DNA from: Citrobacter freundii
Lineage (GTDB): Bacteria > Pseudomonadota > Gammaproteobacteria > Enterobacterales > Enterobacteriaceae
Length of the DNA stretch: 64,000 bases
Reading direction: 5' to 3'
NCBI RefSeq assembly: GCF_029717145.1
Contig: NZ_CP099222.1
Coordinates: 1,550,001-1,614,000, forward strand
The notes below the pieces were generated by a model, which was not told the DNA's origin, did not search any database, and saw only the letters and a program-made list of their open reading frames with translations. Both the position numbers and the translations under genes were made by a program. Shown here in pieces: positions 5,296 through 35,960 of the stretch (positions are counted from its first letter, which is position 1; each line of letters opens with the position of its first letter).

Positions 5296-5610
5296 TCGTG
5301 TTTAAGACCTGTTAGAACGATGCTTAAGATGAAGGGGCAGTATAAAGGGTAATGGATGAATTGCCATACTCTCGCAGCACCGGACGCATGGCATGTGTTT
5401 ACCGCACATCTTGCTTCGTCACGGCGTGGTCAATCTGTACAGCCCACCGTGTCAGGTACAAATAGAAATTTTGAACCTAAGAAATTAGCATTAAATAACA
5501 AGAAATTATTAGATAAGCTTAGGTGTGATTAATACACAAAGAAATAGTTAATAATTGTTATAGTTTTTCGTTGGTAGCACAGGACTGTCAGTTTTGTGTA
5601 AATTAGGGTA
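5296..5610. other. rcsD upstream region, no gene seen
   Basis: About 315 bp between the rcsD start and the 3' end of micF. The part nearest rcsD is of mixed composition, and 5460-5580 is very AT-rich. It must hold the rcsD promoter, but I could not pick a convincing -35/-10 pair by eye. No open frame resembles a protein. Confidence 0.5.
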
Positions 5611-5703
5611 AAAAAAAACCGAACGCAGAGCATTCGGTTGAAATAGGGGTAAACAGACATTCAAGAATGAATGACGGTAATAAATAAAGTTAATGATGAT
5701 AGC
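5611..5703 (-). ncRNA. micF: MicF antisense sRNA
   Basis: The minus strand starts GCTATCATCATTAACTTTAT, which matches the E. coli MicF 5' end. It runs about 93 nt to a GC hairpin (CCGAATGC...GCGTTCGG) followed by a run of nine T. MicF pairs with the ompF mRNA leader and blocks its translation when osmolarity, temperature or redox stress is high. As in E. coli it is divergent from ompC and shares its OmpR-type upstream region. Confidence 0.93.
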
Positions 5704-5858
5704 AGTGCTATTTTAGTTGCGAGTGAAGATTTTGTTTTGTCATTCAGTGCTATGAGTTTTTCGAATGCAATTAGTTGATTTATATCGTTATATGTATGTT
5801 TCTTGACTATTTGTGCTTATTTTGCTCATTTTTGATTTTTAAAAAGTTCCCTGATATT

Positions 5859-5957
5859 AACATTTTGAAACATCTATGTAGATAAATGAAACACCTTTAA
5901 AGTTTTAGTATCATATTCGTGTTGGATTATTCTGTGTTTTTGCGGAGAATGAAGTTG
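5859..5957 (+). promoter_or_regulatory. ompC promoter with OmpR-type sites
   Basis: The -35 TTGGAT (5922-5927) and -10 GAGAAT (5945-5950) are 17 bp apart and match the published E. coli ompC promoter as I remember it. The upstream stretch 5859-5919, with repeated TGAAACA-like motifs (TTGAAACATC, ATGAAACACC), corresponds to the tandem OmpR boxes. The start site would be near 5957, giving a leader of about 78-80 nt. The OmpR assignment rests on similarity to E. coli, not on a scored motif search. Confidence 0.8.
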
Positions 5958-6034
5958 CCGACTGGTTAATGAACGTAATCAGTATGCAGTGGCATAAAAA
6001 AAGCAATAAAGGCATATAACAGAGGGTTAATAAC

Positions 6035-7159
6035 ATGAAAGTCAAAGTACTGTCCCTCCTGGTCCCAGCTCTGCTGGTAGCAGGTACCGCGAATGCGGCT
6101 GAAATTTACAACAAAGACGGCAACAAATTAGATCTGTACGGTAAAGTCGACGGTCTGCACTATTTCTCCGATAACAAAGGTGATGATGGTGACAAGACTT
6201 ATATGCGTATCGGCTTCAAAGGCGAAACTCAGGTTAACGACCAACTGACCGGTTACGGCCAGTGGGAATACCAGATTCAGGGTAACGCGGCTGAAAGTGA
6301 AAACAACGCCTGGACCCGTGTGGCGTTTGCGGGTCTGAAATTCGCTGATGCCGGTTCTTTCGATTACGGTCGTAACTACGGTGTTACTTATGATGTAACG
6401 TCCTGGACCGACGTCCTGCCGGAATTCGGCGGCGATACCTACGGTGCTGATAACTTCATGCAGCAGCGTGGTAACGGCTTTGCGACCTACCGTAACACCG
6501 ATTTCTTCGGCCTGGTTGATGGTCTGAATTTTGCCCTGCAGTACCAAGGTAAAAACGGTAGTGTAAGCGGTGAAAATGATACGGGCCGTGGTACGTTGAA
6601 ACAGAATGGTGACGGCTTCGGTGGTTCACTGACTTATGATCTTGGTGCTGGTTTTGGTATCGGTGGTGCAATCACTTCCTCCAAACGTACTGCAGATCAG
6701 AATGCGGCTGGCGTGTATGGTAGTGGTGATCGTGCGACGGTTTACACCGGTGGCCTGAAATATGATGCCAATAATGTATATCTGGCGGCACAGTATTCTC
6801 AGACTTACAACGCAACCCGTTTTGGTGATTCTAAATCTACCAATGGCAATGACATCTACGGTTTTGCTGATAAAGCGCAGAACTTCGAAGTTGTTGCACA
6901 GTACCAGTTTGACTTCGGTCTGCGCCCTTCAGTGGCTTACCTGCAGTCAAAAGGTAAAGACATCACTAACGGTAGCACCAACTTTGGCGACCAGGATATC
7001 CTGAAATATGTTGATGTTGGCGCGACTTACTACTTCAACAAAAACATGTCTACCTATGTTGATTACAAAATCAACCTGCTGGATGACAACGAGTTCACTC
7101 AACGTGCCGGTATAGCTACCGATGATATCGTAGCGCTGGGTCTGGTTTACCAGTTCTAA
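6035..7159 (+). CDS. ompC: Outer-membrane porin OmpC
   Basis: A 374-residue general porin (E. coli OmpC 367). The signal peptide [21 protein letters not shown] is followed by mature [19 protein letters not shown], which is diagnostic for OmpC/OmpF/PhoE. The protein forms a 16-strand trimeric barrel and ends in the C-terminal Phe (LGLVYQF) read by the BAM complex. Length differences from E. coli fall in the surface loops, where porins vary most. A ribosome-binding site (AGAGGG) lies before the ATG. The gene is followed by its own terminator. Confidence 0.97.
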
Positions 7160-7177
7160 TCTGTGTTCATTGTTATT

Positions 7178-7203
7178 AAAAGGCCCTGCGGGGCCTTTTT
7201 TAA
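7178..7203 (+). terminator. ompC intrinsic terminator
   Basis: Stem AAAGGCCC/GGGCCTTT with a short loop and a T tract, 20 bp after the ompC stop. Confidence 0.9.
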
Positions 7204-7275
7204 TGCCGTTATTCCGGCGTACAGGCAACCCTTTTTGGTGTACTCTTGCGTCCGTTCGCATGAGGATAATCACGT

Positions 7276-8331
7276 ATGGATATGAATTTTTGCCGCGCAG
7301 CCCTGTTGGCTGTGACGATCTTTTTTGTCGGCTGCGATAACGCACCAAAGCCGGTTCAGACCACACCGCCTGCGGCCACCGTACTGGAAGGCAAAACGAT
7401 GGGCACCTTCTGGCGGGTTAGCGTGGTGAACGTTGATGCTAAACGCGCCGAAGAACTGCGGGTCAAGATCCAGACGCAGCTTGATGCTGACGATCAGCTG
7501 CTCTCTACCTATAAAAACGATTCTGCGCTGATGCGTTTTAACTTGTCGAAAAGCCTGTCGCCCTGGCCGGTCAACGATGCCATGGCGGATATCATCACCT
7601 CGGCGCTGCGTATTGGCGCGAAAACCGATGGCGCGATGGACATCACCGTCGGCCCGTTGGTTAACCTGTGGGGATTTGGTCCGGACAAGCAGCCGCTGCA
7701 TATCCCCACGCAGGCACAAATTGATGCCGCAAAAGCACAAACCGGGCTGCAGCACCTGAGCGTAATCAATGACACGCGGCAGAACTATCTGCAGAAAGAT
7801 CTACCGGATCTGTATGTCGATCTCTCTACCGTTGGTGAAGGTTATGCTGCCGATCATCTGGCCCGACTGATGGAGCAGGAGGGGATCGCCCGTTATCTGG
7901 TGTCCGTTGGTGGGGCGCTGAACAGCCGGGGGATGAACGCCGAGGGACGTCCGTGGCGAGTAGCGATCCAGAAACCCACAGATCGGGAAAACGCGGTGCA
8001 GGCGGTTGTAGATATTAACGGTCATGGCATCAGCACGTCCGGCAGCTATCGCAATTATTACGAACTGGACGGAAAGCGTCTGTCGCATGTTATCGATCCG
8101 CAAACCGGTCGGCCAATTGAGCATAATCTGGTCTCGGTGACGGTGATTGCGCCTACGGCACTGGAAGCCGACGGCTGGGATACCGGCCTGATGGTGCTCG
8201 GCACGGATAAAGCCAAAGAGGTGGTGCGTCGTGAAGGGCTGGCGGTTTATATGATTGTCAAAGAAGGCGAGGGGTTTAAAACCTGGATGTCGCCGCAGTT
8301 CGAAAGCTTTCTGGTCAGCGATAAAAATTAA
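7276..8331 (+). CDS. apbE: ApbE FAD:protein FMN transferase, lipoprotein
   Basis: A 351-residue periplasmic lipoprotein that transfers FMN from FAD to Thr residues of respiratory flavoproteins such as the Nqr and Rnf subunits. The lipobox is FFVGC with the lipidated Cys at residue 20. Core motifs include GKTMGTFWR, TVGPLVNLWGFGP, VDLSTVGEGYAAD, GGALNSRG and the C-terminal HVIDPQTGRP and EADGWDTGLM. Length equals E. coli ApbE. An alternative ATG two codons downstream would also serve. Its stop codon lies inside the Ada box of the following gene. Confidence 0.95.
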   Translation: MDMNFCRAALLAVTIFFVGCDNAPKPVQTTPPAATVLEGKTMGTFWRVSVVNVDAKRAEELRVKIQTQLDADDQLLSTYKNDSALMRFNLSKSLSPWPVNDAMADIITSALRIGAKTDGAMDITVGPLVNLWGFGPDKQPLHIPTQAQIDAAKAQTGLQHLSVINDTRQNYLQKDLPDLYVDLSTVGEGYAADHLARLMEQEGIARYLVSVGGALNSRGMNAEGRPWRVAIQKPTDRENAVQAVVDINGHGISTSGSYRNYYELDGKRLSHVIDPQTGRPIEHNLVSVTVIAPTALEADGWDTGLMVLGTDKAKEVVRREGLAVYMIVKEGEGFKTWMSPQFESFLVSDKN

Positions 8332-8338
8332 AAAGCAA
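8326..8338 (+). promoter_or_regulatory. Ada box (operator for methylated Ada)
   Basis: AATT-AAAAA-GCAA has the same layout as the E. coli ada operator (AATT, five bases, GCAA), followed by AGATTG. Methylated Ada binds such a site to activate ada-alkB. It overlaps the apbE stop codon at 8329-8331. Confidence 0.75.
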
Positions 8339-8410
8339 GATTGCAGGTTTTTACGCCCTGCAATGCGGACACACTGAGGCTAAGCACTATGCTTAACAAA
8401 GGAGTCCATT

Positions 8411-9475
8411 ATGAACAATCTTCAACGCGTAACCGATGAGGACCGTTGGCAGTCTGTGTTACAGCGTGATGCGGACGCTGACGGTCAGTTTGTTTTTGCC
8501 GTACAGACCACGGGTATCTTTTGTCGACCGTCATGTCGGGCTAAACATGCGCTGCGTAAAAATGTCCGTTTCTTTGCCGATGCCGGGCAGGCGTTAGCGG
8601 CAGGATTTCGTCCCTGCAAACGCTGTCAGCCGGAGAAAGCCAACGCGCAGCAGCAGCGGCTGGAGAAGATTAGCCTGGCCTGCCAGTTGTTAGAGCAGGA
8701 GTCGCCGCTCACGCTGGAGGCTTTAGCTCAGCAGGTGGCGATGAGCCCGTTTCATCTACATCGTCTGTTTAAAGCTACGACGGGCATGACGCCGAAAGCG
8801 TGGCAGCAGTCCTGGCGCGTCAGGCGTTTGCGTGACGCGCTGGCGAAAGGCGCACCGGTGACCCAGGCGATTTTGAATGCCGGCTTCCCCGACAGCAGCA
8901 GCTATTACCGTAAAGCGGATGGAGCGCTGGGCATGACGGCAAAGCAGTTTCGTCAAGGCGGCGATAAGCTGGCGATTCGCTATACCGTGGCGGACTGCGC
9001 ACTGGGCCGCTGCCTGGTAGCGGAAAGTGAACGCGGTATCTGCGCAATTTTACTCGGCGACGACGATGCTACGCTGGTATCTGAGCTGCATGAACTGTTT
9101 CCTGCAGCACGTGGTGTGCCTGCGGATCCCGATTTTCAACAGCGTGTGCGCGAAGTGATCGCGGTCATTAACTCACGCAATACCCCATTGTCGCTGCCGC
9201 TGGATATTCGGGGAACCGCGTTTCAGCAGCAGGTGTGGCAGGCGCTGCGTGACATTCCCTGTGGCGAAACGGTGAGCTACCAGCAGTTGGCGAATGCCGT
9301 GGGGAAACCGAAAGCGGTGCGCGCTGTGGCGAGTGCCTGCGGAGCAAATAAGCTGGCGATTGTGATCCCGTGTCATCGGGTGATCCGCGGCGATGGCGCG
9401 CTTTCGGGTTATCGCTGGGGCGTCGCCCGCAAGGCGCAACTGCTGCACCGTGAAACCACAGGTGAGGACAGATAA
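8411..9475 (+). CDS. ada: Ada bifunctional DNA alkylation repair protein and activator
   Basis: 354 residues, the same length as E. coli Ada. The N-terminal zinc site holds Cys38, Cys42, Cys69 and Cys72 (GIFCRPSC, FRPCKRC). Cys38 takes methyl groups from phosphotriesters and turns the protein into an activator. An AraC-type helix-turn-helix follows (about residues 85-180). The C-terminal methyltransferase has Cys321 in the IPCHRV motif and repairs O6-methylguanine. The start has a good ribosome-binding site (AAAGGAG). alkB follows with a stop/start overlap, so the two are co-translated. Confidence 0.97.
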   Translation: MNNLQRVTDEDRWQSVLQRDADADGQFVFAVQTTGIFCRPSCRAKHALRKNVRFFADAGQALAAGFRPCKRCQPEKANAQQQRLEKISLACQLLEQESPLTLEALAQQVAMSPFHLHRLFKATTGMTPKAWQQSWRVRRLRDALAKGAPVTQAILNAGFPDSSSYYRKADGALGMTAKQFRQGGDKLAIRYTVADCALGRCLVAESERGICAILLGDDDATLVSELHELFPAARGVPADPDFQQRVREVIAVINSRNTPLSLPLDIRGTAFQQQVWQALRDIPCGETVSYQQLANAVGKPKAVRAVASACGANKLAIVIPCHRVIRGDGALSGYRWGVARKAQLLHRETTGEDR

Positions 9476-29887: not shown

Positions 29888-30535
29888 TTATTGCATGCCG
29901 CGTGTTTGTAAAAACAGGATGGTAGCCGCAACGCGAGAACGCACGTTAAGTTTGCGCAGCAGATTGCGAATATGCACCTTTACTGTTTGTTCGGAGATAT
30001 TCAGCACTGACGCGATCTGTTTGTTTGACAGCCCCTGTGCCAGTTCGTGTAATACATCCAGTTCGCGTTCGGTCAGCATGCTGAACGGATCTTCTTCTGC
30101 GCCAAATAGCTCACGTTCACGCAGGTAGTTGCTGACGCGTTCGCTGAAGGCTTTACCGCCTTTCGCACCGCTGCGAATAGCTTCGAGCAACACTTCCGGA
30201 TCGCTGTCTTTCAGCAAATAACCGTCAGCGCCAGCATCAATTAAGGCATAAACATCGCTGGCGGAATCCGATACGGTAAGAATGATAATTTGTGCTGTGA
30301 TGCCATCCCGGCGCAGCGCATTCAGGGTATCCAGTCCGCTCATACCTTTCATATTGAGATCCAGCAGGATCACATCCAGGTCAAGCCGGTTTGCCAGATC
30401 GATAGCACTCGCGCCGTCGCCTGCTTCGGCAACCACGTCAAATGCGCTATCCAGCTGCAGTAATTGACTGATTCCTCGCCGCATGAGTGGGTGGTCATCA
30501 ACGATCATCACCTTAAAAGGTGTTAATTCAGGCAT
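29888..30535 (-). CDS. narP: NarP nitrate/nitrite response regulator
   Basis: A 215-residue NarL-family regulator. The receiver has MIVDDHPLMRRG and the phospho-acceptor in ILLDLNMKGMSG. The LuxR helix-turn-helix is LSNKQIASVLNISEQTVKVHIRNLL. An open frame runs 72 codons further upstream, but MPELTPFKVMIVDD with AGGAGAAG before it is the family start. It activates the adjacent nap operon through the 7-2-7 site found at 17461. Confidence 0.96.
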   Translation of the reverse strand: MPELTPFKVMIVDDHPLMRRGISQLLQLDSAFDVVAEAGDGASAIDLANRLDLDVILLDLNMKGMSGLDTLNALRRDGITAQIIILTVSDSASDVYALIDAGADGYLLKDSDPEVLLEAIRSGAKGGKAFSERVSNYLRERELFGAEEDPFSMLTERELDVLHELAQGLSNKQIASVLNISEQTVKVHIRNLLRKLNVRSRVAATILFLQTRGMQ

Positions 30536-30737
30536 CTTCTTCTCCTGAGCACTCTTAATTTCGTTATATTTCGGGGCATGGGATAATCCTGATTTATCAC
30601 GCAGATGATAAGGCAACGTGACCCTACTTTTTACAGGTGCAAATAGTATATCCTGACTCAAAAAGCTCTCATTGGAATTTTTACAAAGAATACTCTTTAT
30701 GACTTGAATCAAGGTGCTGCCGGTTTGCGAGACGAAA

Positions 30738-30772
30738 TAAAAAAACCGCAACGACTGGCGCTGCGGTTGCCT
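30738..30772 (-). terminator. norB intrinsic terminator
   Basis: On the minus strand AACCGCAGCG/CGTTGCGGTT forms a stem with one mismatch, followed by a run of T, 34 bp after the norB stop. Confidence 0.8.
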
Positions 30773-30805
30773 TTTAATTGCTGAGCGTCATCTTAAAAAT
30801 GGCGC

Positions 30806-33070
30806 TTAGTTTTTCTCGTTTGCCAGCGTCATCGATTTAGCGTTGGCTTTGGTAAGCAGTTTCAGCGCAAAGAGCGCCAGCAGCAGTCCACCGATACCGA
30901 AGATGATGTCGCCCGGGACACGCAGCCAGACCAGTGTTTCAACGATATGCGAGTGAATCACTTCCGGAGAGCGCGCGTACCACAGCCCCTTATCAATGCT
31001 GGCCCATGACTGATAAATCCCTACCGGCAGCAGCGAGACAAAGACCATCCACGTTAAGCCGATGTTCATCAACCAGAATGCCCATTTCAACAGAGAATCA
31101 ACCCAATGGTTGTCCGGCAGCAGACCACGCAGACAGAACAACATTAGACCAATACCGAGCATACCGTATACGCCAAACAGCGCGGCATGAGCATGCGCTG
31201 CCGTCAGGTTCAGACCCTGCACGTAGTACAGTGAAATCGGCGGGTTGATGGCGAAGCCCAGCAGGCCAGCGCCGACCATATTCCAGAATGCCACGGCCAC
31301 GAAGAAGAAGATCATCCAACGGTAACGCTGTACCCACGGTGCTTTACGTGCCAGTGAGTAACTGTGTGCAGCTTCGATCCCCACCAGCGAAAGCGGAACC
31401 ACTTCCAGTGCAGAGAAAATTGAACCCCAGGCAATGACGGAGATCGGTGCGCCAGTGAAGTACAGGTGGTGCAGCGTTCCCAGAATGCCACCAAACAGGA
31501 AGATGATGGTCGAGAACAGTGTTGCTTTGTTCGCCGCGCTACTACGAATAAGACCGAGACGACAGAAGATAAGCGCAATCACGGCGGTGGCGAAGACTTC
31601 AAAGAAACCTTCTACCCACAGGTGAACCAGCCACCAGCGCCAGTATTCAATAATGGCGTAATGCGTCTTAAAGCCCCAAATCAGGGACGTAGAGTAGAAC
31701 AGGCCGATACAAATGGCTGCCAGGAACATCAGCATGATCAGACCACGGTTTTCTGATGGACGGGTGAGGGCAGGCCATAATGCACGTCCCACCAGCACCA
31801 GCCAAATCATCAGGCCGATAAACAGCAGCCACTGCCACATGCGTCCCATGTTGGTGAACTCGAGACCCTGGGCACCAATATAGAAGTTCTGTTTGGCATC
31901 CAGATAGCCCATTGCACCCAACCAGCCGAAGCCCAGCGAACCAACCACCAGAATCAGCAGCGCAACAAACAGAATATTAACGCCCAGACGCTGGAATGCG
32001 GGTTCTTTGCCGGAAATCAGCGGGGCGATATACAGACCGGTTGCCAGCCACGCGGTAGCAATCCACAGAACTGACAGCTGGGTGTGCCAGCTACGCAGTA
32101 CGGTGTACGGTAAGATTTTCGATAGCGGGATGCCGAAGAAATCCTGGCCTTCCACGCTGTAGTGCGCAGTCATCGAACCGAGGAAAATTTGCACCATAAA
32201 CAGGGCGATAACCACGTAAAAATATTTTGTGGTTGCGCGCATCGACGGTGTCAGCGTCAGCCGGAACAGCGGATCGCTGGCCGGGGAGACAATGGTTTCG
32301 TCTTCTTCGTTACGGAAATGGTACCAGACCAGGGCACCAATACCGCCCAGCAGCAGAATGACGCTGGCAATAGACCAGATGCCTAAGCTGGCACTTGGCG
32401 TATTACCCACCAGCGCTTCATGCGGCCAGTTGCTGGTGTAAGTGATGGTATCACCTGGGCGTTCGGTGGTGGCAGCCCAGGCGCTCCAGAAGAAGAAGGC
32501 GCCGAGATCCTGCCGGTCCAGAGAAGAGGAAAGTGTATTTTCCTTCATCGCATAGTCAACGCGCAGCGCGTGGAAATCAGGCGCGTCGCTGAACAGACCG
32601 TCATAATGCGCGGCAACCTCACGAATGGCTTTGGCGCGCTCCGGTGTAATAATGATGACATTACGCAGCGCGTCATAGCTATTATGGCGCATCTCCTGTT
32701 TCATCAGGCCGCCCGCAACCAGCTGTTGTTCTTGCGTTAGCGCATCGAACGGTTGCTGATATTTTTTCTCGGCGATGATGTCGCGTAAGGCAAGCGCTTC
32801 ACGGTGCAGCCAGTCCGCAGACCAGTCAGGCGCAACGTAGCTGCCATGGCCCCAAACGGAACCCAGCTGTTGACCGCCAGATTTGAACCAGGCCTCCTGC
32901 CCATCCTGAATTTGTTCCCCGGTGAAAACCTGCTCACCATCCGTCGTGATAACTTGTGCCGGAATAGGCGGAGCCTGCTGATAAATCTCGCCGCCCAGCC
33001 ACAGTAGCACGCCAAAGGACGCCAGGCAGATAACGAGAAGCGTTAGCCATAAACGCTTTGAGTAATGCAT
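30806..33070 (-). CDS. norB: Quinol-dependent nitric oxide reductase (qNOR)
   Basis: A 754-residue single-subunit NO reductase of the haem-copper oxidase superfamily. The N-terminal extension after the first helix replaces the NorC subunit. The catalytic part of about 12 helices carries the expected His ligands (RSWHTQLSVLW, VHLWVEGFFEVFA, LHHLYFTGAP, HAHAALFGVYG). It reduces 2 NO to N2O with electrons from quinol. E. coli K-12 has no homologue here and uses Hmp and NorVW. It lies convergent-side of narP and has an NsrR-like site upstream. The symbol norB (also norZ) is used for the family. Confidence 0.93.
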   Translation of the reverse strand: MHYSKRLWLTLLVICLASFGVLLWLGGEIYQQAPPIPAQVITTDGEQVFTGEQIQDGQEAWFKSGGQQLGSVWGHGSYVAPDWSADWLHREALALRDIIAEKKYQQPFDALTQEQQLVAGGLMKQEMRHNSYDALRNVIIITPERAKAIREVAAHYDGLFSDAPDFHALRVDYAMKENTLSSSLDRQDLGAFFFWSAWAATTERPGDTITYTSNWPHEALVGNTPSASLGIWSIASVILLLGGIGALVWYHFRNEEDETIVSPASDPLFRLTLTPSMRATTKYFYVVIALFMVQIFLGSMTAHYSVEGQDFFGIPLSKILPYTVLRSWHTQLSVLWIATAWLATGLYIAPLISGKEPAFQRLGVNILFVALLILVVGSLGFGWLGAMGYLDAKQNFYIGAQGLEFTNMGRMWQWLLFIGLMIWLVLVGRALWPALTRPSENRGLIMLMFLAAICIGLFYSTSLIWGFKTHYAIIEYWRWWLVHLWVEGFFEVFATAVIALIFCRLGLIRSSAANKATLFSTIIFLFGGILGTLHHLYFTGAPISVIAWGSIFSALEVVPLSLVGIEAAHSYSLARKAPWVQRYRWMIFFFVAVAFWNMVGAGLLGFAINPPISLYYVQGLNLTAAHAHAALFGVYGMLGIGLMLFCLRGLLPDNHWVDSLLKWAFWLMNIGLTWMVFVSLLPVGIYQSWASIDKGLWYARSPEVIHSHIVETLVWLRVPGDIIFGIGGLLLALFALKLLTKANAKSMTLANEKN

Positions 33071-33158
33071 AACCTAACCTTTTTTATTGTACAAAGCCTG
33101 AGCCATCGCGACGCAGGAGGGGGAAGGTACTTTCCCCTGACATATCTTTACACATATA

Positions 33159-33181
33159 AACATGTATTTTAAATACAACTT
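33159..33181 (-). promoter_or_regulatory. NsrR-like operator upstream of norB
   Basis: An 11-1-11 inverted repeat, AACATGTATTT - T - AAATACAACTT. Each half matches the NsrR consensus half (AAGATGCATTT) at 9 of 11 positions, and the inner TGTATTT-T-AAATACA is a perfect palindrome. Its proximal edge is 89 bp from the norB start. NsrR is the NO-sensing iron-sulfur repressor, which fits the gene product. Confidence 0.8.
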
Positions 33182-33392
33182 TGTGTGTATAAAGAGGGTT
33201 ATGCGTTGATTTTGATTTATAAGTAAGTCGATGGGGCGAGTACGGAAGTGTCACTATCAACAGATAGCGTTAAATGTGTTTCTTAACGACACAAAAATTA
33301 TTCAGTTATTACGTCACTATTTTTCAATCGTGTTAAATAATGGCAGGCACATTATTGCTAAGCAGGTATCCATCGAACACCTGCTCATCGTA
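33182..33392. other. norB-bor intergenic sequence, no gene seen
   Basis: Together with 33071-33158 this makes a 322-bp gap between norB and the bor-like gene. A short frame on the + strand is only the antisense of the bor-like gene and has no family resemblance. Confidence 0.45.
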
Positions 33393-33692
33393 TTATTTAG
33401 CGCAATACACTCTCGCCTCACGAGGTGTGTAGATACCGATAGTAATAATACGCAAGAAAACATCCATTCCCGATTCCTGTACTTCGGTACGGATAACTTT
33501 GTCTGCACCACCACAAACAAGTGCTGCATCAATAGTTTGCGACTGGCCTATGCCGTGAACAAAAAAGCTCTGTTTGACCTCTTGGGTCGGTTTTTCGGCA
33601 ATGCCGTTATTTATTTTAAAGGTTTGCTGTGCACAACCTGATAACGCTACAGCTGCCACTAATGCCATCATTAACTTTTTCATTTTTACCAT
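33393..33692 (-). CDS. Bor/Iss-family outer-membrane lipoprotein
   Basis: A 99-residue lipoprotein with lipobox ALSGC (Cys20) and the Bor hallmarks AQQTFKINNG, FFVHGIGQ, DAALVCGGADKVIRTE and the end ITIGIYTPREARVYCAK. Lambda Bor, its closest recalled relative, is a lysogeny-expressed lipoprotein linked to serum resistance. A second ATG three codons in (MKKLMMAL) is possible and the ribosome-binding site is unclear for both. No other phage gene is nearby, so it is probably a domesticated copy. Confidence 0.88.
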   Translation of the reverse strand: MVKMKKLMMALVAAVALSGCAQQTFKINNGIAEKPTQEVKQSFFVHGIGQSQTIDAALVCGGADKVIRTEVQESGMDVFLRIITIGIYTPREARVYCAK

Positions 33693-33780
33693 CGTAGGGT
33701 TAGGATAGAAATGTCATGTTCTTATTTATTTTATTTCGCACATATCCGACCAGCGATTCATTCTGCTATGAAATGCTTAA

Positions 33781-33797
33781 CGTTTAAGCAGGGTTTA
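33781..33797 (+). promoter_or_regulatory. PhoP-box-like direct repeat upstream of bor gene
   Basis: CGTTTA-AGCAG-GGTTTA is a direct repeat with the 5-bp spacer of the PhoP box (TGTTTA-N5-TGTTTA type). It reads on the strand opposite the gene, about 90-105 bp before the bor start. Assignment is by eye and by analogy with Mg2+-responsive bor copies in E. coli. Confidence 0.45.
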
Positions 33798-34008
33798 TTA
33801 AAGTGAAAAATTAATAAAATATTTGTGTCATTACTGTAATCTCGATTTGCTGTTTGACAACATTAATTAAATATCAACTTTAATGAGCGGCAATAATAAA
33901 CAATGTTGATATTAAAGATGCAAGCAGCTGGAAGAGAAGTCAGCAGGGTGAATTATGCCAGGCACCGGCCAGGAAAGAGGGCGCTGAGTCCCGGCAAATT
34001 GCAGACAT
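33798..34008. other. bor-proL intergenic sequence, no gene seen
   Basis: The first half is very AT-rich; the second (33918-34005) is of normal composition with GC-rich segments. I saw no tRNA-fragment duplication that would mark a phage attachment site. Confidence 0.4.
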
Positions 34009-34040
34009 AAAAAAACCAATCGTAGAAGATTGGTTTTTTT
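34009..34040 (-). terminator. proL terminator (bidirectional)
   Basis: Stem AACCAATC/GATTGGTT with a 5-nt loop and A and T tracts on either side, 10 bp beyond the CCA end of the tRNA. Confidence 0.85.
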
Positions 34041-34049
34041 GGGGAATTT

Positions 34050-34126
34050 TGGTCGGCACGAGAGGATTTGAACCTCCGACCCCCGACACCCCATGACGGT
34101 GCGCTACCAGGCTGCGCTACGTGCCG
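34050..34126 (-). tRNA. proL: tRNA-Pro (anticodon GGG)
   Basis: A 77-nt gene whose minus strand starts CGGCACGTAGCGCAGCCTGG and ends GTGCCGACCA, with the CCA encoded. The anticodon loop reads CATGGGGTG. The T arm (GGTTCAAATCC) is intact. This is proL, which occupies the same place next to yejM in E. coli. Confidence 0.97.
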
Positions 34127-34140
34127 ACACTATGGCGCTA

Positions 34141-34168
34141 ATACTACTGCTTTCCACCACGATTGCAA
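34141..34168 (-). promoter_or_regulatory. Probable proL promoter
   Basis: On the minus strand TTGCAA and TAGTAT are separated by 16 bp, and the -10 ends 14 bp before the tRNA 5' end. Confidence 0.6.
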
Positions 34169-34180
34169 GAGGATGGTTTA

Positions 34181-34207
34181 CTAACTGATTTATAATTAAT
34201 CAGTTAG
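34181..34207 (-). terminator. Stem-loop overlapping the yejM stop codon
   Basis: CTAACTGATT and AATCAGTTAG form a perfect 10-bp inverted repeat with a 7-nt loop that includes the yejM stop. No strong T tract follows, so terminator function is uncertain. Confidence 0.5.
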
Positions 34208-35960
34208 CAATAAAACGTTTCTCATCCGTCAGAACCTGTAGCAGTAAGCTCAGCTGTGGTTTCTGATCTTTAATCTTCTCGCCGCGTAAATCATAGGTCT
34301 GGTAATTACCGTTGTTGTTGAGCACTAGCGTCATTTCTGGAGTGGTAATCGCCATTGTGCTGCTGTCGGCGGCCGTTACCCAATAGTGGCGTCGCGTGGC
34401 ATTAAACAAATCCTGGCCTTGCGAATATTCGTTTGCCGGTGTGCTGACGTGCAGCAGTCGCTGCATCAGCGTGGTCATCAGGTCGGTATGATCGGTCAGG
34501 CTATTAATGCGCTGAGCGGGTGTACCCGGCCAGTGAATTATCAGTGGAACCTGAAGATGACCGCGCGACCAGTCGAAGCGATTCTCATCCTGCGACAGTG
34601 GGACACCCCGACCGGCGGTAATAATCACCACCGTGTTGTTGAGCTTACCCGAATCACGCAGGGCGCCCAGAACGCGGTTAATGTTCGCATCTACGTCCTG
34701 AGCCGCGTTGGCGTAGCGTTTAGCAAAGTTCTTCTGGTTGCTGTCATCAATGTTAGTCCCGTTAAAGGAGACCCATGAGAACCAGCGGTTATCTTCCTGC
34801 GCGTAGCGGCCCAGCCAGTTGATCCATTGGTTCGCCGTTTGTTCGTCAGATTGTGTCTGCACGCTTGGCATGGAGAAGTCTGACAGCAGCGCCTGGCGAT
34901 AGAGCGGGCTGGTAAAGCCATCAGAGGAGAATAACCCTAACTGATAACCTTGTTGATTTAGGGCAGAGATCAGCGCGGCAGGCGTTCTGCTTGCCAGAAT
35001 GCCGTCCATATAGCTTGGCGACACGCCATAGAACAGGCCAAAAATACCGTTATCGGAGGTATTACCGGAACTCATATGGCGCGTGAAGGAAATATTTTGC
35101 CCGGCAAATTCCGCCAGGGCTGGCATCTGTTTTTCAAAGCGCGAGTAGTTCAGACCGTCTACGGTGATCAGCAGGACGTTCTGGCCGGTACCCATATCAC
35201 GATAGCGTAAATCGCTAAGCGGATACTGCACGGAGACCGCTTCCGGATTACCTTGTTCGATCAGGCGGCGCTGATACTCTTGCGCATCCAGCAAACCATG
35301 TTTTTCCAGAAACTTACGCGCTGTCATTGGGTAAGACAGCGGCAGGTTTGCGCGCTGCATAGTGATCGGCCGATAGAAATTGGCGTCCGCCCAGATGTAC
35401 ACCACATGCGATGCGATGAACGATACGAAAAAGAAAGCGGCTAAAGGTTTCGCGAAATGACGGCGACGCGTCAGGCTGCGCAGCTTTTGCCAGCTCCAGG
35501 TCGCAAACAACATTTCTATTAGCAGAATAATCGGCACGCTGATGAACATCAGCTGCCAGTCACGCGCCGTTTCGTTCTGATCGGGGTTAATGACCAGTTC
35601 CCAGACAATCGGATTGAGATGCAGGTGGAAACGGGTGAACACTTCGCTGTCAATCAACAGCAGCGTCATGCCCACGGTCGCCAGGATGGCTGATAAGAAT
35701 CGCATCAGCCTCTGGGACATGACGATAAACGTCAGGGGGAACAGGATCAGCAAATAGGCGGCAAACACCAGGAAGCTAAAATGCCCGACAACGCTCAGAT
35801 AAGAATAAACACGACCTGCAAGCGTTGTCGGCCAGTCGGCGACAAACAGGTAACGACTACCGAGCACCATGGCCAACAGAATGTTGAACAAGGCGAACCA
35901 GTGCCCCCAGCTAACCATCTGGGAGACTTTCTCACGGTAGCGTTGACGATGAGTTACCAT
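34200..35960 (-). CDS. yejM: YejM (PbgA/LapC) regulator of LPS synthesis
   Basis: A 586-residue inner-membrane protein. Five N-terminal helices (to about residue 190) are followed by a periplasmic sulfatase-like domain (LLITVDGLNYSRF...SSGNTSDNGIFGLFYG). In E. coli it senses periplasmic LPS and restrains LapB-FtsH breakdown of LpxC; the membrane part is essential. Length equals E. coli YejM. It is downstream of yejL on the same strand. Confidence 0.95.
   Translation of the reverse strand: MVTHRQRYREKVSQMVSWGHWFALFNILLAMVLGSRYLFVADWPTTLAGRVYSYLSVVGHFSFLVFAAYLLILFPLTFIVMSQRLMRFLSAILATVGMTLLLIDSEVFTRFHLHLNPIVWELVINPDQNETARDWQLMFISVPIILLIEMLFATWSWQKLRSLTRRRHFAKPLAAFFFVSFIASHVVYIWADANFYRPITMQRANLPLSYPMTARKFLEKHGLLDAQEYQRRLIEQGNPEAVSVQYPLSDLRYRDMGTGQNVLLITVDGLNYSRFEKQMPALAEFAGQNISFTRHMSSGNTSDNGIFGLFYGVSPSYMDGILASRTPAALISALNQQGYQLGLFSSDGFTSPLYRQALLSDFSMPSVQTQSDEQTANQWINWLGRYAQEDNRWFSWVSFNGTNIDDSNQKNFAKRYANAAQDVDANINRVLGALRDSGKLNNTVVIITAGRGVPLSQDENRFDWSRGHLQVPLIIHWPGTPAQRINSLTDHTDLMTTLMQRLLHVSTPANEYSQGQDLFNATRRHYWVTAADSSTMAITTPEMTLVLNNNGNYQTYDLRGEKIKDQKPQLSLLLQVLTDEKRFIAN

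Follow-up and report, generated by a model that had tools for sequence, protein, structure and literature searches.

An NsrR-type operator sequence upstream of a quinol nitric oxide reductase gene in Citrobacter

NsrR is an Rrf2-family [Fe-S] repressor of the nitric oxide (NO) response; its established targets include ytfE and hmp. For Neisseria, Chromobacterium, Ralstonia and Burkholderia, norB has been predicted to be under NsrR control (PMC1274295), and in Neisseria NsrR is reported to control genes of denitrification (PMC3032703). The locus described here shares with the NsrR regulon of E. coli and Salmonella (hmp, ytfE, hcp-hcr, ygbA and yeaR-yoaG) the same 11-1-11 operator, the same repressor and NO-defence targets. 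It differs from that regulon in norB itself, for which the E. coli genome collection contained no near match, in line with the earlier note on this DNA, which had described the NO-consuming enzyme as absent from E. coli K-12.

An NsrR-type palindrome upstream of norB

We analyzed a 64-kb stretch of Citrobacter DNA (the window), in which the following two features are central.

33159..33181, no strand assigned: NsrR operator, an 11-1-11 inverted repeat, AACATGTATTTTAAATACAACTT (consensus match, matrix scores and conservation)
30806..33070, minus strand: norB, single-subunit quinol-type nitric oxide reductase of 754 aa (Pfam, solved qNORs and motifs)

The plus strand of the window reads AACATGTATTT T AAATACAACTT at 33159–33181, and the norB strand reads AAGTTGTATTT A AAATACATGTT. 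The 23-bp palindrome agrees with the NsrR consensus at 20 of the 22 scored positions. Its two half-sites, 1 bp apart, each match AAGATGYATTT at 10 of 11 positions, or at 9 of 11 when only C is accepted at position 7, which is the figure that the earlier note had given; the perfect palindromic core that it claimed corresponds to the inner seven bases of each half. Two positions separate the site from that of E. coli hcp, AAGTTATATTTAATATACATGTT, which has ChIP support (PMC5320621). The norB gene starts at 33070 on the minus strand; the far edge of the operator lies 111 bp and its near edge 88 bp ahead of the ATG. The ytfE, hmp and DUF1971 sites of the same genome are only 26–27 bp from their start codons, and the greater distance for norB implies a longer leader.

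The earlier note had proposed scoring the site with an NsrR matrix. Our first matrix was built from the hmp, ytfE, DUF1971, ygbA and hcp sites of relatives (Enterobacteriaceae), with norB left out. The norB site scored 33.6 bits, on a par with ytfE and higher than hmp; the leave-one-family-out scores in the same genome were 36.0 for ytfE, 35.0 for DUF1971 and 24.6 for hmp. The maximum among 97.8 million random positions was 24.2 bits, and the second-best spot in the window reached 8.2 bits. Because the training sites of this matrix had been collected by consensus similarity, we ran a second matrix derived from 16 ChIP-supported NsrR sites of E. coli CFT073 (PMC5320621). The norB site scored 29.0 bits on this matrix, within the range of the published E. 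coli sites (ytfE 31.2, hcp 25.7 and hmp 21.9) and above the random maximum of 23.9 in 78 million positions.

The palindrome was the sole match in the window at three or fewer mismatches, and 100 shuffles of the window gave no match at this threshold. The whole 4.74-Mb genome contained four such matches including norB, and a reversed-pattern control over the whole genome gave none. Of the other three, one lies ahead of ytfE, one ahead of hmp and one ahead of a DUF1971 gene next to dsbB. Each of these genes is a known or likely target of NsrR; we take the DUF1971 gene to be of the STM1808 type, partly from its gene neighbourhood. STM1808 of Salmonella is counted in the NsrR regulon (PMC7082413). 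A fourth site, with three mismatches, ATGATGTATTTGATTTGCATCTT, is common to three Citrobacter genomes (G011 C4:104652, G001 C2:94249 and G012 C2:2332429).

Four enterobacterial norB lineages carry the palindrome at a similar distance from the norB ATG: C. gillenii at −111 (the window norB matches the gene of Citrobacter gillenii UMG736 at 100% identity), Intestinirhabdus alba at −111, genome G254 at −110 and an Enterobacteriaceae MAG at −106. For the norB genes of I. alba and the MAG, the identity was 83% and 85%, respectively. Among the four lineages, 13 of the 23 palindrome columns are invariant, compared with 3/70 in the upstream and 10/70 in the downstream flank; that is, the sequence and spacing of the palindrome were kept while the flanks diverged. 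The earlier note would have counted low matrix scores across related genomes against its reading, and the site withstood this comparison. The I. alba and G254 sites scored lower (20.2–20.4 bits), a level at which approximately 0.7 matches per genome, and far fewer within one upstream region, are expected by chance. The I. alba half-site AAGTGGTATTT is identical to one given for the c5065-nrfA ChIP peak (PMC5320621), and that of G254 is one base off. In G052, which belongs to a different family of the order, AAGATGCATACCATATACATCTT lies approximately 91 bp ahead of the start of the tblastn match to norB.

Additional NsrR-like sequences were observed near other norB genes. A perfect single half-site, AAGATGCATTT, lies at −38 from the norB ATG in G254 (L016); I. 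alba has a 10/11 version near the norB start codon and C. gillenii has none. In G049 (L009, 4448–4520), two adjoining NsrR-like palindromes occur approximately 0.8 kb upstream of norB; a different gene, itself located before norB, apparently follows them.

The NorB enzyme, NsrR and the variable neighbourhood

NorB contains the Pfam domains NorB_cytochrome_c-like and COX1 (at 37–217 and 279–723), that is, a NorC-like N-terminal domain fused to the haem-copper catalytic domain, and a search of the protein for the CxxCH haem-c motif found none. It aligns over its full length with the solved qNORs 8bgw, 6qq5, 6fwf and 3ayf (E about 1e-240) and has the catalytic motifs HLWVEGFFE, HHLYF and HAHAALFG at 483, 534 and 626. 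By family, the norB product is a true quinol NO reductase, with predicted activity; the reduction of NO to N2O would follow from the family. The same genome encodes NsrR between rnr and purA, as read from the sequence of these neighbours, with a profile score of 286.5 bits against a cut-off of 182 and three C-terminal cysteines in the cluster-binding region.

We searched the genome for the other enzymes of denitrification and found no match to NosZ, no NirK above the cut-off and no credible candidate for NirS. A protein matching PF02239 (cytochrome d1) was rejected as NirS on length and sequence, as it is an exported protein of 356 aa and too short. Given that the genome lacks NosZ and a NirK above the cut-off, NorB is more likely to detoxify NO during nitrate ammonification than to take part in denitrification.

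The surroundings of norB in the window include the following features.

29888..30535, minus strand: narP, nitrate/nitrite response regulator, same-direction downstream neighbour (NCBIfam PRK10403, 437 bits against a cut-off of 343)
30744..30768, minus strand: intrinsic terminator following norB, at the border of the variable segment (10-pair stem followed by a T tract)
30738..33835, no strand assigned: variable segment with norB and bor (exact-junction absence in the norB-less Citrobacter G007)

The norB gene lies 270 bp upstream of narP, and the nap genes, read from translations, occupy approximately 17.5–23.4 kb of the window. The clustering of norB with narP and nap that the earlier note had pointed out is therefore real in the window; it is restricted to the lineage of C. 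gillenii, as norB has other surroundings in I. alba and G254. As the clustering is confined to one lineage and a terminator separates norB from narP, the arrangement is no evidence of co-regulation.

In the sister genome G007 (L064), which lacks norB, the sequence continues directly from window position 30737 to 33836. The present-or-absent segment with norB and bor is approximately 3.1 kb long and lies near a tRNA gene (34053–34126), the only match of an RNA-family scan of 30500–34300. The difference may reflect gain or loss, with neither direction proven. Direct repeats were rejected as an account of insertion, since only short AT-rich matches were found at the two junctions. The distribution of norB is sparse: it occurs in 3 of 17 Citrobacter genomes and 5 of 295 genomes of the family.

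The gene adjoining norB (33393–33692, minus strand) encodes a lambda Bor-like lipoprotein (Pfam Lambda_Bor), is also found beside norB in G008, and is probably of phage origin, carried along with the variable segment. In G008 (L065, about 5550–9258), an extra cargo of approximately 3.7 kb with three ORFs separates the norB/bor segment from the tRNA-proximal sequence, indicating that the norB spot is variable in Citrobacter. In G254 (L068, 4416–7847), norB is split by an insertion whose two ORFs look like a transposase pair of the IS3 family, and norB lies just upstream of a DUF1971 gene bearing its own strong NsrR site.

Proposed regulation of norB and its alternatives

The matrix scores, the conservation in four lineages and the presence of nsrR in the genome support the earlier note in taking the palindrome for an NsrR operator, and from these data we infer regulation. 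We are highly confident that the palindrome would be the operator through which NsrR controls norB, and repression by NsrR that is relieved by NO is very likely. In the absence of NO, NsrR would sit on the site and block the norB promoter. NO would react with the NsrR cluster, NsrR would leave the operator, and norB would then be made along with hmp, ytfE and the DUF1971 gene. The predicted NorB would draw electrons from the quinol pool to reduce NO to N2O, and would thereby complement Hmp under oxic and NorVW under anoxic conditions.

We scanned for a sigma-70 promoter, and a single weak candidate was found.

33166..33193, minus strand: candidate sigma-70 promoter TTTATA-16-TAAAAT, weak, with the −10 element inside the operator (one found)

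Shuffled sequences gave an expectation of 1.2 such matches, and the candidate was not conserved in the other norB lineages. The sigma-70 scan thus found no convincing conserved promoter upstream of norB; together with the distance of the operator from the ATG, this leaves the geometry of repression unproven.

Control of norB could instead lie mainly with NorR and sigma-54, FNR or NarP, the palindrome being secondary. The genome encodes norR with a divergent norV, narP adjoins norB, and an FNR-like sequence with an 8/10 match, TAAATCAAAATCAA, is located at −149 in C. gillenii. However, 52 of 200 shuffles reached as good a match, nothing corresponding to it occurs in the other three norB lineages, and the sigma-54 and NarP consensus matches upstream of norB are weak and unconserved; the best sigma-54 match in C. 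gillenii was equalled by 15 of 200 shuffles. Consensus scans of the four lineages for FNR, NarP, CRP and sigma-54 were at or near chance, and we consider primary control of norB by NorR, FNR or NarP improbable. FNR activation alongside NsrR has been proposed for hcp (PMC1274295), and FNR could add anaerobic activation of norB alongside NsrR. Palindromes are also common in AT-rich DNA such as this intergenic region (about 40% GC), and the repeat might be a chance product or a structural element of DNA or RNA that serves no regulator. Such an origin is more improbable still, because shuffles predict zero matches by chance, the matrix score exceeds anything in 98 million random positions, and the palindrome persisted at its spacing where the flanks changed.

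Under control by NsrR, a membrane NO reductase would join the NsrR regulon in a few Enterobacteriaceae. Nitrate reducers could then clear NO anaerobically via the quinol pool, releasing N2O, under direct control of an NO sensor. The locus would also exemplify a sporadically present gene bearing an operator that the host regulator can already read.

Relation to described norB systems

Among plasmid records, the closest norB genes outside the enterobacteria are those of Eleftheria and Variovorax plasmids (60.8–62.5% identity). Their operons comprise a DUF2249 gene and norB, followed in Eleftheria by nsrR and nnrS, with an NsrR-like palindrome upstream (TAGGTGCATTCGAAATACACCTT in the Variovorax plasmid operons). 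The Rrf2 regulator of the Eleftheria operon, which also encodes NnrS, is 43% identical to NsrR of the window genome. The Eleftheria copy has its own nsrR and companions, whereas the Citrobacter norB stands alone and would use the resident NsrR. We tentatively suggest that a norB cassette with its own operator and terminator moved among Enterobacteriaceae, possibly from a β-proteobacterial origin with an accompanying nsrR. Since these groups have an operator code in common, such a cassette could have joined the resident NsrR regulon immediately.

In our search of the open-licence literature we found no previous description of norB under NsrR control in Enterobacteriaceae. The systems of Neisseria, Chromobacterium, Ralstonia and Burkholderia involve the same enzyme family and the same repressor as the Citrobacter norB. 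Their norB belongs to a denitrification set, whereas the searches of the Citrobacter genome gave no NosZ match, no NirK above the cut-off and no credible NirS, and norB is rare in the family. NsrR control of norB is already known from Neisseria and β-proteobacteria; the Citrobacter case is well supported and would be an unsurprising addition to a defence circuit of this known kind.
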